A DNA stretch of 64,000 bases from Fidelibacterota bacterium. GTDB lineage: Bacteria > Pseudomonadota > Alphaproteobacteria > Rhodospirillales > Rhodospirillaceae. The translations under genes were made by a program, and so were the position numbers. The DNA lies in the NCBI GenBank assembly GCA_947475895.1, contig CANJMF010000007.1, positions 1 to 64,000 on the forward strand, given 5' to 3'. The notes beneath the pieces were generated by a model. It searched no databases. It saw only the letters and a program-made list of their open reading frames with translations, and was not told where the DNA came from. Below, piece after piece: positions 55,203-59,118 of the stretch. How positions within the stretch are numbered: the first letter of the stretch is position 1; the number at the start of each line of letters is the position of its first letter.

Positions 55203-58091
55203 TTACTTCTCCGCCAACACGGCTTGCGCCGCCGCAAGGCGCGCCACGGGCACGCGGTAGGGCGAGCACGAGACGTAATCCAAACCCTGGCGATGACAGA
55301 AGGCGATGGAGTCCGGGTCGCCGCCGTGTTCGCCGCAGATGCCCAGCTTCACATCGGGGCGCGTTGCACGGCCGCGCTCGACCGCGATCTTGATCAACTC
55401 GCCCACGCCTTCCTGATCGAGCGACGCGAAGGGGTCTTTTGCGTAGATGCCCTTCGCGCGATAGGTTTCGATCAACGGCGCGCAGTCGTCGCGCGAGAGG
55501 CCGTATGTGGTTTGCGTGAGATCGTTGGTGCCGAAGGAGAAGAACTCGGCGTCGTGCGCGATTTCACCGGCTTGAAGGGCCGCGCGCGGCAATTCAATCA
55601 TTGTGCCGATCAGATACGGCACGCTGGATTCCAGCGTGGCGAACACCTTGGCCGCCGCGTCGTTGATCAGCTTTTTCATCATCGTAAGTTCGGCGCGCGT
55701 ACCCACCAGCGGAATCATAATTTCCGGCGTCACGGTCTTGCCGACCTTCGACACTTGCACGGCCGCTTCGAAAATCGCGCGCGCCTGCATTTCGTAAATC
55801 TCAGGATGCGACACGCCCAAGCGCACGCCGCGATGGCCGAGCATGGGGTTGGTTTCGTGCAGCTTTACTAGAACTTCCCGCACGGAATCTTCCGATACGC
55901 CCGCACCGCTCGCCACTTCGGCGATTTCGGCGTCGGTGTGCGGCAGAAATTCGTGCAGCGGTGGATCGAGCAGACGGATCGTGACCGGCAAGCCTTCCAT
56001 GATCGTGAACAGCTTCACGAAGTCGCTGCGCTGATACGGCAGCAGTTTATCTAACGCAGCTTTGCGACCACCCGCATCCTTGGCGAGGATCATCTGACGG
56101 ACGGTGAGGATGCGGGTGGCGTCAAAGAACATGTGCTCGGTGCGGCACAAGCCGATTCCTTCCGCGCCGAATTTGCGGGCGGTTTCGGCATCGAGCGGCG
56201 TCTCGGCGTTGGCGCGTACTTTTAAGCGGCGGATTTTATCGACCCAACCCATGAGCGTCGCGAAGTCACCGGTCAATTCCGGGCGAATGGTTTTCACCAT
56301 GCCGAGAAAGATTTCGCCGGTGGCGCCGTCCATGGTGATGACGTCGCCTTCCAGCAACACTTTGTCGCGCACGCGCGCGGTTTTGTTTTTCACATCCACT
56401 TGAATGTCGCCGGCGCCGCAAACGCACGGCGTGCCCATGCCGCGCGCGACCACAGCCGCGTGGCTGGTCATGCCGCCGCGCGTGGTGAGAATGCCTTGGC
56501 TGACGTGCATGCCGCCGATGTCTTCCGGCGATGTTTCACGGCGCACGAGGATGACTTTCTCGCCGCGCTTTACCCAATCTTCCGCGTCTTCGGCGGTGAA
56601 TACGATCTTGCCCGAAGCGGCCCCCGGAGACGCGGGCAATCCGCGCGACAGCAATTGGCGCGGCGCTTTTGGATCGAGAGTCGGATGCAGCAATTGATCG
56701 AGTTGCGCAGGATTGATGCGCTTCACCGCATCGGCTTCGCTGATCAAGCCTTCGCGCGCCATATCGACGGCGATCTTAAAACCGGCAGCGGCCGTGCGTT
56801 TACCGCCGCGCGTTTGCAGCATCCAGAGTTTGCCTTTCTGGATGGTGAATTCCATGTCTTGCATGTCGCGGTAATGACGCTCAAGCCGGTCGCGCAATTC
56901 CACGAGCTGTTTGTACAGCGGCGGCATTTCCTCTTCCATGCACGGCAGTTCGGAGCTGTGCGCGTTCTTGCCGGCCAGCGTGATCTGTTGCGGCGTACGG
57001 ATACCGGCCACCACATCTTCGCCTTGCGCGTTCACGAGGTATTCGCCGTAGAACACGTTGTCGCCCGTCGACGGATCGCGGCTGAAGCATACGCCCGTGG
57101 CGCAATCGTTGCCCATGTTGCCGAACACCATGGCCTGCACGTTGACAGCGGTGCCCCAGTTGTCGGGAATATCGTGGAGTTTGCGGTAGGTGATGGCGCG
57201 CTGGTTCATCCAGCTGCCGAAGACCGCACCGACGGCGCCCCACAGCTGCGCGTGAACGTCTTGCGGGAACGGGTGCCCCAGTTCTTCTTCGACCTTCGCT
57301 TTATAAGCGCCGACGAGGCTTTTCAAATCGTCCGCCGTCAGTTGCGTATCGAGTGTGACGCCGCGGTCTTCCTTGGCGATGTCGAGTAAATGCTCGAAGT
57401 CGTAGTGATCCATATTAAGGACCACCGACGAATACATTTGAATGAAACGGCGATAGCTGTCGTAAGCAAAGCGCGCGTCTTTCGACTGCGCCACCAAGCC
57501 TTCGACCGTCTCGTCGTTGAGGCCGAGATTCAAGATGGTGTCCATCATGCCCGGCATGGATGCGCGCGCACCTGACCGCACTGAGACCAACAAGGGATTC
57601 TTCACGTCGCCGAAGCCCGCGCCGATGTGCGCTTCCACTTTCGCGAGCGCCGCTTCGACTTCGGCCTTCAGGTTGGCGGGGTACTGTTTACCGTTTTGGT
57701 AAAAGTGCGTGCAGACCTCGGTCGTCACGGTAAAGCCCGGCGGCACCGGAATGCCGATGCTGCTCATCTCGGCCAGGTTGGCGCCCTTGCCGCCCAAAAG
57801 GCTGACCATGGAGACGGTGCCTTCCGCCTTGCCCGCGCCAAAGCCGTAGACGCATTTGGCCACCCCTGCGGGGGCCGCAGCGGCCTTCCCATTGGTGGGG
57901 GCGGGATAGAGGTCTGGGCGAAGCTCGTGGCGGGAAACCTTACCGGCGGTGGCCGTTTCAACGGCTAGGGCCCGTTCGGCTGGCACTCGGTCCCATTGGC
58001 TGATAGCTTGGGGGGTGACGTTGATAGCCCGGGCCAGGGCGGCCACGCCGCCGGCCTCGACAATGGCCTTTTCTAAAGCGTTATCGCGCAT
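55203..58091 (-). CDS. ppdK: Pyruvate phosphate dikinase with N-terminal YdaS-like DNA-binding domain
   Basis: A 962-residue fusion. Residues 1-62 form a YdaS/Cro-like helix-turn-helix (ALEKAIVEAGGVAALARAIN, VTPQAISQWDRVPAERALAV, ending HELRPDLYP). An Ala/Pro linker follows, and then a full PPDK: nucleotide-binding start GGKGANLAEMS, phospho-histidine H544 (MTSHAAVVARG) and catalytic C942 (SCSPYR). The usual enzyme is about 880-890 residues, so the extra 75 are the DNA-binding part. There is no internal ATG near the normal PPDK start (CVYGFGAGKAEG), so the fusion is real. It interconverts pyruvate+ATP+Pi and PEP+AMP+PPi. AAGGGG lies ahead of the ATG. Six GTAAG half-sites lie just upstream, suggesting direct self-regulation. 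Confidence 0.9.
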   Translation of the reverse strand: MRDNALEKAIVEAGGVAALARAINVTPQAISQWDRVPAERALAVETATAGKVSRHELRPDLYPAPTNGKAAAAPAGVAKCVYGFGAGKAEGTVSMVSLLGGKGANLAEMSSIGIPVPPGFTVTTEVCTHFYQNGKQYPANLKAEVEAALAKVEAHIGAGFGDVKNPLLVSVRSGARASMPGMMDTILNLGLNDETVEGLVAQSKDARFAYDSYRRFIQMYSSVVLNMDHYDFEHLLDIAKEDRGVTLDTQLTADDLKSLVGAYKAKVEEELGHPFPQDVHAQLWGAVGAVFGSWMNQRAITYRKLHDIPDNWGTAVNVQAMVFGNMGNDCATGVCFSRDPSTGDNVFYGEYLVNAQGEDVVAGIRTPQQITLAGKNAHSSELPCMEEEMPPLYKQLVELRDRLERHYRDMQDMEFTIQKGKLWMLQTRGGKRTAAAGFKIAVDMAREGLISEADAVKRINPAQLDQLLHPTLDPKAPRQLLSRGLPASPGAASGKIVFTAEDAEDWVKRGEKVILVRRETSPEDIGGMHVSQGILTTRGGMTSHAAVVARGMGTPCVCGAGDIQVDVKNKTARVRDKVLLEGDVITMDGATGEIFLGMVKTIRPELTGDFATLMGWVDKIRRLKVRANAETPLDAETARKFGAEGIGLCRTEHMFFDATRILTVRQMILAKDAGGRKAALDKLLPYQRSDFVKLFTIMEGLPVTIRLLDPPLHEFLPHTDAEIAEVASGAGVSEDSVREVLVKLHETNPMLGHRGVRLGVSHPEIYEMQARAIFEAAVQVSKVGKTVTPEIMIPLVGTRAELTMMKKLINDAAAKVFATLESSVPYLIGTMIELPRAALQAGEIAHDAEFFSFGTNDLTQTTYGLSRDDCAPLIETYRAKGIYAKDPFASLDQEGVGELIKIAVERGRATRPDVKLGICGEHGGDPDSIAFCHRQGLDYVSCSPYRVPVARLAAAQAVLAEK

Positions 58092-58114
58092 GGGACACCC
58101 CTTGAGAGACGCAT

Positions 58115-58175
58115 GTAAGGCGACCGTAAGGGAGCAAGTAAGACGTCCTTACAACCGACGTAAGCCGCACCTTAC
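58115..58175. promoter_or_regulatory. Array of six GTAAG/CTTAC half-sites upstream of ppdK
   Basis: GTAAG starts at 58115, 58126, 58138 and 58160, and CTTAC at 58148 and 58171. Start-to-start steps are 11, 12, 10, 12 and 11 bp, so all half-sites face the same side of the helix. The last four form two dyads (GTAAG-N5-CTTAC and GTAAG-N7-GTAAG-N6-CTTAC). A TATAGG that could be a -10 lies just upstream on the minus strand (58181-58186). The likely ligand is the helix-turn-helix of the PPDK itself. Confidence 0.7.
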
Positions 58176-58261
58176 ATCGCCCTATACTCCTCGGTTTGGG
58201 GGCCTGCAAACGGAAAGTGGGGCTGCCAGGCGTCCCTGCCCGCGTGGGCGGCGAAAACGAG

Positions 58262-58345
58262 CCCATGAACTTATGAATCGCACATGGTCAGTCGCTTGAT
58301 CGGTCACGCTTTTTGGCGCTGGCATTCGACCCCATGAACTTATGA
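58262..58345. repeat. 15-bp direct repeat between ppdK and the lysozyme-like gene
   Basis: CCCATGAACTTATGA occurs at 58262-58276 and 58331-58345, 69 bp apart. Both copies lie in the 463-bp intergenic region between ppdK and 58555, which holds this repeat, a possible promoter (TTGACA at 58394) and two terminators. I see no gene here. Confidence 0.6.
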
Positions 58346-58428
58346 TTCGGGCTGTCGCCGCCACCGGCATCACTGTTGACGAACCGCGGAAAGTTGACAA
58401 AAATCACAGGGTCATAATCGTGCACTCG

Positions 58429-58460
58429 CCCCGACGGGAAACCGTGCGGGGTTTTTTATT
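58429..58460 (+). terminator. First of two tandem terminators
   Basis: CCCCG-a-CGG-gaaa-CCG-tg-CGGGG with a GNRA-type loop, followed by TTTTTT (58452-58457). It shares the 15-bp GCGGGGTTTTTTATT with the second terminator. Confidence 0.8.
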
Positions 58461-58501
58461 GCCTGCGTGGTTGCCCGGCGTGACGCCCTTCCCCAACCCG
58501 A

Positions 58502-58542
58502 CCCCGTTGCCCGCCTTACCGGCGGTCGCGGGGTTTTTTATT
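58502..58542 (+). terminator. Second of two tandem terminators, just before a gene
   Basis: CCCCG-ttgc-CCGCC-ttacc-GGCGG-tcg-CGGGG, then TTTTTT (58534-58539). It ends 12 bp before the ATG at 58555, leaving no room for a promoter. It may act as an attenuator. Confidence 0.75.
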
Positions 58543-58554
58543 TGGAGGCCATCA

Positions 58555-59118
58555 ATGGCACTCGCTCCCTATCGAAGCTTTGGATTATTTGCCCCGAGCC
58601 AACCGCAAAATCATACGGGCGACGACGATCCCGTTGCGCACTGGAAACAGGGGATCGGCTTTAGTGAAGAACCAGCCCAAGACGCCCAAGGATTTTGGAC
58701 GATTGGTTACGGCCAAAGACTCAACGACACACCCGGCGGCCCGAGGCCCTACGCGACAATCTCGGAACCCATCGCCCACGATGAACTGAACTACTTCATG
58801 GCTCAGGGCGGCGACCCAAGTACGCGCATTAATCCAACGCCAGAAACTATCAGCGAAGGAGAGGACATCGGACCGACGGATAAGCCGCAATACCTTCCCA
58901 GTTCGGGAGGATACACGCGAGGCCAGCACGTCGGCGTTCAAGGCAATGTTACTCAGGAGGATATCGACGCCATACCCGATGACATTTTGATGCCGGACAA
59001 TTCGATCGGCGGCAAAATTTTAGAAGGTGCTGTCGGTGTTTACGATGCAATGGGTCGGCTCATTGGCAAAAAACCCGAGCCGCCGCCATTTCCGAACAAT
59101 GTCGGCATAAGGGGGTAA
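58555..59118 (+). CDS. Small protein with a lysozyme-like TIGYG motif
   Basis: 187 residues from the ATG at 58555 (GGAGG six bases upstream). The same frame is open from 58342, through both terminators. Residues about 38-52 (DAQGFWTIGYGQRLND) match the D...G-x2-TIGYG part of phage-type (GH24) lysozymes. The catalytic Glu expected nine residues before that Asp is not present, so lytic activity is doubtful. The rest is hydrophilic and Pro-rich, with no signal peptide. It may be a phage remnant. It lies directly behind two tandem terminators, so it may be expressed only by read-through. Confidence 0.55.
   Translation: MALAPYRSFGLFAPSQPQNHTGDDDPVAHWKQGIGFSEEPAQDAQGFWTIGYGQRLNDTPGGPRPYATISEPIAHDELNYFMAQGGDPSTRINPTPETISEGEDIGPTDKPQYLPSSGGYTRGQHVGVQGNVTQEDIDAIPDDILMPDNSIGGKILEGAVGVYDAMGRLIGKKPEPPPFPNNVGIRG

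Follow-up and report, generated by a model that had tools for sequence, protein, structure and literature searches.

A phage Cro-type domain fused to pyruvate phosphate dikinase, a probable repressor of its own gene

What does a DNA-binding domain do at the head of pyruvate phosphate dikinase (PPDK), and does it act on the promoter from which the enzyme is made? In the window (the whole 64 kb stretch of DNA that was analysed), the preliminary description had claimed that one frame joins a helix-turn-helix to PPDK. This is borne out, and Pfam recognises both parts. It had also claimed that the protein regulates its own gene through the fused domain. We consider it very likely that the head is a domesticated phage Cro, which came with its operators to the glyS–ppdK junction and now represses ppdK. 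The gene and its parts are as follows.

55203..58091, minus strand: ydaS/cro fused to ppdK in a single open frame, 962 aa counting the stop
57906..58091, minus strand: Cro-type (YdaS/P22_Cro) helix-turn-helix, residues 1–62, from PF15943, PF14549 and related solved structures
57858..57905, minus strand: unconserved Ala/Pro-rich linker, residues 63–78, from the alignment of 34 fusions and pLDDT
55206..57857, minus strand: complete PPDK, residues 79–962, with H544 and C919, from Pfam domains and structure-chain matches

Architecture of the fused protein

The head matches the Pfam families YdaS_toxin (PF15943, at 6–64, 1.9e-19, 69.6 bits for a curated cut-off of 30) and P22_Cro (PF14549, 2.8e-12, 46.7 bits for a curated cut-off of 30.2). 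By sequence, the nearest solved chains are 5w8y (XPH1), 3bd1 (Cro), 5w8z (XPH2), 2pij (Pfl 6 Cro) and 1rzs (Cro); we take 3bd1 and 1rzs to be the Cro proteins of phages Xfaso 1 and P22, respectively. The Pfam name would make the head a toxin, and YdaS-type products have been reported as toxic (PMC5700373). We rejected this reading, based on a footprinting study whose authors argue that YdaS and YdaT are analogues of Cro and CII, not a toxin–antitoxin pair (PMC8630535).

The PPDK part contains the PPDK_N, PEP-utilizers and PEP-utilizers_C domains, and aligns over its full length to 1kbl, 2x0s and further PPDK structures. H544 had been correctly identified and lies within GGMTSHAA, but the assignment of C942 as the catalytic cysteine was wrong: C942 is a different cysteine, conserved too, and that of GICGEHGGDP is C919. 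This motif presumably carries the catalytic cysteine, residue 831 in the PPDK from C. symbiosum, and the end register to 1dik (961 to 873) is consistent with C919 being the equivalent of residue 831. We assume that H544 (the phospho-histidine) and C919 are the catalytic residues, and the fused enzyme is probably active. It resembles ordinary PPDK in its full-length homology and in both catalytic motifs, and differs from it by the N-terminal helix-turn-helix, the linker and the operators in the promoter.

Across the 34 fusions described below, 29 of the 62 residues of the head are invariant, and its mean pairwise identity is 81%, versus 78% for the first 150 residues of PPDK. The pN/pS ratio of the head, pooled over six close pairs, is 0.054 (the L019/L024 PPDK comparison, which was ungapped and gave an implausible dN of 2.18, is not part of the pooled value). 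These values indicate strong purifying selection on the head. The linker measures 12 to 36 aa and is conserved neither in length nor in sequence. The structure predicted for the whole fusion from 13 sequences is poor (mean pLDDT 63.6, pTM 0.46) and informs only on the helical head and on the low-confidence linker, whose residues 66–77 have a pLDDT below 50.

The production of a separate PPDK from an internal start was rejected as a conserved feature. The linker stretch that was tested contains an ATG in none of the 34 fusions, and 25 of them have no ATG, GTG or TTG; the nine others have an in-frame GTG, preceded by a purine-rich stretch in three cases (L018, L035, L036). The linker of the window is one of these nine, and has no such stretch before its GTG.

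Reading the frames of the window, we found no CI-like partner upstream of the fusion, and the only Pfam match of the divergent frame (58342–59118) is Phage_lysozyme, below the cut-off. The lack of a divergent CI-type partner suggests that the head is a captured domain and not a phage switch. A 23-bp direct repeat, CGAGCCCATGAACTTATGAATCG, occurs upstream of the fusion promoter in two copies that are 91% identical and 69 bp apart (58258–58280 and 58327–58349).

Distribution and origin of the fusion

The preliminary description had recommended a search for similar fusions. Fused frames, in which the match runs from residue 1 or 2 into PPDK, are found in 34 of the 73 genomes of the family (f1) to which the window belongs, its own included. 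They span eight genera (g1, g2, g3, g5, g7, g9, g18 and g44). The rest of the family consists of 31 genomes with an ordinary PPDK, five with no match and three in which the gene is cut by contig ends (G004, G067, G090). When 317 genomes of the order were searched with the head as the query, all frames longer than 510 aa fell within this family. In samples of the class (385 genomes) and of the phylum (398 genomes), the only PPDK-sized frame with PF15943 among the candidates scored, at most 15 per genome, is that of the window.

In a tree built from 34 PPDK with the head and 26 unfused ones, the fused proteins form one side of a single branch with support 99/97, so that the trait needs one change. 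The unfused set comprises 23 of the 31 ordinary PPDK of the family and three from other families of the order; both counts were made after setting aside 12 duplicates and the contig-split copy of G004 (L025).

A co-oriented relative of glyS precedes the gene in 26 of the 34 fused loci (gaps of 145–1355 bp, median 196, seven above 600) and in 25 of the 26 unfused loci (gaps of 2–335 bp, median 23). No relative of glyS was found within 1500 bp upstream in the other eight fused loci, including that of the window. Since glyS neighbours both fused and unfused ppdK, a cassette most likely entered at an old glyS–ppdK junction. From the present layout we infer that a cro gene, together with its own promoter and operators, would have landed there in frame in a forebear common to eight genera or more.

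Operators upstream of the fused genes

Six GTAAG/CTTAC half-sites had been described upstream of the fusion, and we confirm them at 58115, 58126, 58138, 58148, 58160 and 58171, in steps of 11, 12, 10, 12 and 11, which places the array 24–84 bp upstream of the ATG. They can be arranged as follows.

58160..58175, minus strand: candidate operator dyad GTAAG-N6-CTTAC, 84–69 bp upstream of the ATG
58138..58152, minus strand: candidate operator dyad GTAAG-N5-CTTAC, 61–47 bp upstream of the ATG
58126..58130, minus strand: half-site CTTAC, by sequence
58115..58119, minus strand: half-site CTTAC, by sequence, the closest to the start codon

There are 69 half-sites in the 64 kb window, and six of them crowd into these 61 bp; outside the array, no 100-bp stretch of the window starting at a half-site contains more than two.

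The relatives share this crowding. Each of the 34 fused genes has three to eight half-sites in the 130 bp upstream (171 in total), while 300 dinucleotide shuffles of the same 34 x 130 bp gave 12.5 on average and never more than 23. CTTAC/GTAAG is the most frequent 5-mer in these regions. None of the 26 unfused PPDK has three half-sites, and two have one. The preliminary description would have been in difficulty with fusions lacking the half-sites beside ordinary genes carrying them; the result is the opposite, and this comparison strongly supports its claim of self-regulation through the fused domain.

The half-sites also leave an evolutionary footprint: 134 of 166 are intact between close pairs, versus 654 of 3178 other 5-mers, the counts being made in both directions over 18 pairs that are not independent. 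The operators thus appear to be under selection. The idea that the fusion is an assembly or frameshift artefact, or the array a chance cluster of motifs, has a negligible probability: the former is ruled out by the presence of the fusion in 34 genomes, the latter by the shuffles and by the footprint, and we found nothing in support of either.

The array had been described as helically phased. This holds within each Cro-type operator, where half-sites are about one turn apart, but the regularity of the array as a whole is not conserved: the step of 10–12 bp varies among relatives, half-site positions and spacing differ between clades, and a phased array of six sites is ruled out as a conserved unit. 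A CTT lies exactly 10 bp past GTAAG at 53 of the 171 sites (the other offsets tested gave 1–12, save offset 15, with 23). The corresponding pattern, AAG-N5-CTT, is found upstream of 27 of the 34 fused genes, versus one of the 26 unfused ones, and is absent from seven fused upstream regions. Several Cro-type operators are a better description than a phased array.

It may be asked whether the head itself binds these operators. Since the fusion and the array coincide in all 60 PPDK genes that were compared, the two are inseparable within the clade, and this coincidence would also fit an unlinked regulator that binds the array, the head being a relic or a structural element. The strong purifying selection on the head argues against this explanation, as does the presence of the motif, outside the clade, upstream of three genes whose helix is of the same type (two free Cro genes and one NnrD/E fusion); we regard it as very improbable. 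One of these free genes (L063, 60% identity) is preceded by GTAAGCATAACTTAC, and its divergent neighbour resembles a CI gene by eye. Upstream of the other (L139, helix SSQAISQW), GTAAG is present twice and CTTAC three times. The 58138..58152 dyad has the same 15-bp geometry as the sites preceding both. The third case (L085:423-2147, minus strand) is a YdaS/Cro head with the helix RPQAVYQW on an NAD(P)H-hydrate epimerase/dehydratase (NnrD/E), and the 15-mer upstream of it is the same GTAAGCATAACTTAC as that before L063. In terms of sequence, the three loci share helix type and operator with the ppdK fusion.

The correspondence between helix and motif is not one to one, however, because five additional free Cro genes whose helix contains [PS]QA (one of them TPQAISQW) mostly use other outer bases, GAAAG, TCAAG or similar: four have no GTAAG half-site, and L076 has one. 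All five have AAG-N5-CTT, versus one of the eight remaining genes of the 13 examined (the viral loci and L055). Among 39 entries from the class and phylum, this pattern is found at L085, L139, L131 and L143 only.

Proposed mechanism and alternatives

The fusion, its head and its operators are conserved, they occur together, and the same operator recurs at further genes whose helix is of the same type. To account for this, we propose that the fused PPDK is expressed from a promoter that contains GTAAG/CTTAC operators, to which the Cro domain most likely binds, thereby blocking RNA polymerase. More PPDK protein would then mean less ppdK transcription, and the amount of enzyme would be held constant. 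Autorepression by the fused head is, in our judgement, the probable outcome by a wide margin; binding and repression are deduced from sequence, and the head may activate the gene instead.

Two observations led us to favour repression. The first is the promoter overlap: 12 of the 34 fused genes, all from the genus of the window, have a promoter-like TTGTAA-N16..18-TAnTnA with a half-site overlapping the -35 element, which fits repression by occlusion. This pattern occurs in none of the 26 unfused genes and in a fraction of 0.00015 of shuffles, and it is missing in 22 of the 34 fused genes, including that of the window. The second is the precedent of the CP-933P prophage: its YdaS gives a footprint on operators adjacent to the ydaS gene, and shuts down the promoter from which it is itself expressed (PMC8630535). 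With such YdaS/Cro proteins of lambdoid phages and prophages, the fusion shares the domain family, the repeated operators at its own promoter and the repression expected there; it differs in that the head is fused to an enzyme and has no CI-like neighbour in the window.

The other comparison is with trigger enzymes (PutA, BirA, NadR, PepA), which combine catalysis and DNA binding. PutA represses its own transcription (PMC8249747). By sequence, the fusion also joins an enzyme to a DNA-binding domain and has putative target sites in its promoter, but it is another enzyme, with a phage Cro head and several operators. The preliminary description had suggested that DNA binding is coupled to pyruvate, PEP or AMP; the head would then be freed from DNA, or guided to it, by the enzyme's catalytic state (PEP, pyruvate, ATP or AMP), as proline gates PutA. 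The existence of DNA-binding trigger enzymes (PMC8249747) and the retention of all PPDK domains and of both catalytic residues make this conceivable. No feature of the sequence hints at gating, and such coupling becomes less likely because the linker is unconserved and because related heads sit on unrelated partners that have no common ligand (see below). We consider it unlikely, and the suggested coupling is unsupported.

Might the fused protein also act at other promoters? Two strict dyads (GTAAG-N4..6-CTTAC) occur elsewhere in its own genome, by genes that look, by eye, like those of a PEP carboxykinase and of an ECF sigma factor. However, the first is flanked by the ends of two frames that converge on it, and no cluster is found upstream of the PEP carboxykinase-like gene. 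In the 18 other genomes of the genus, there are 0–3 strict dyads per genome, fewer than in the backward control in 16 of them, as many in G013 (2 and 2) and more in G002 (3 and 1). The scan covered strict dyads, a pattern that, among the 19 genomes of the genus, is found at ppdK in the genome of the window only. We regard a wider regulatory role as unlikely, and self-repression is the reading that we retain.

Regarding the two dyads, the first site (L102:1449-1538) has four half-sites including the strict dyad, between the ends of the PEP carboxykinase-like frame and of a converging frame that resembles GreA by eye. At the second (L105:1467-1515), which precedes the ECF sigma-like gene, the strict dyad is accompanied by a single additional half-site.

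If autorepression is correct, a central enzyme has gained from a phage, in one step, a ready-made negative feedback (repressor, promoter and operators together), and this device has been kept across eight genera. The claim that no PPDK of this design had been described stands as far as the matches listed in the open-access literature go. Among these, in a collection with few subscription journals and no preprints, there is no YdaS/Cro-enzyme fusion of any kind.

Cro heads on other proteins

The PPDK fusion is not an isolated case. Pfam confirms heads on ketopantoate reductase (five loci), an RraA-like protein (one), PF02613 proteins (eight), which we read as TorD-like chaperones, NnrD/E (one) and an EPSP-synthase-family protein (one). 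We think it rather more probable than not that these reflect a recurrent route, in which phage cassettes of promoter, operators and cro insert in frame ahead of ordinary genes, yielding "Cro-headed" proteins that control their own dose. The partners in Alphaproteobacteria would be PPDK, ketopantoate reductase, the NAD(P)H-hydrate repair enzyme, and MurA-like, RraA-like and TorD-like proteins, with the type of operator following the head and not the partner. We did not see this route in the open-access papers surveyed. It suggests that the Pfam label "YdaS toxin" may hide a set of self-regulating proteins.

The TorD-like fusions recur in the class (L083, L084, L086, L088–L093, L128–L134; eight of these frames, L091 and L128–L134, are assigned by length and resemblance only). 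Their two head types pair with two upstream motifs: CATAG/CTATG is found in 12 of the 13 fusions with one head type, in two or more copies in seven, and ACAA-N2..9-TTGT in all three with the other. The latter motif also precedes the five ketopantoate reductase fusions; it is less specific, since L085 and three of the other 17 free genes have it too. As for GTAAG, one half-site each is found in one ketopantoate reductase fusion, two TorD-like fusions, the RraA-like and the MurA-like fusion. The comparison of head types covers the loci other than L099, L100, L147, L055 and all viral loci. Since these motifs were taken from the same sequences, their pairing with heads is a description, not a test; GTAAG is the exception, because that motif came from the original finding. 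Such natural head swaps, in which one type of partner comes with two types of head and two motifs, allow the choice of operator by the head to be tested directly.

As for phage relatives, the matches in INPHARED amount to 95 records, and none of the 12 homologues from the viral_contigs scans has three GTAAG/CTTAC half-sites.

Last, we note the following about individual loci. The ketopantoate reductase (PanE/ApbA) fusions (L056, L057, L059, L060, L061) belong to genus g54, in another family of the order, and have TACAA/TTGTA repeats upstream. The EPSP-synthase-family fusion, MurA-like by eye (L087:605-2071, minus strand), has TTACTAATTTTTTAGTAA upstream. Three TTACAC/GTGTAA half-sites lie upstream of the RraA-like fusion (L058:1294-2250, minus strand), and one is found at a free Cro gene with a similar helix (L062).
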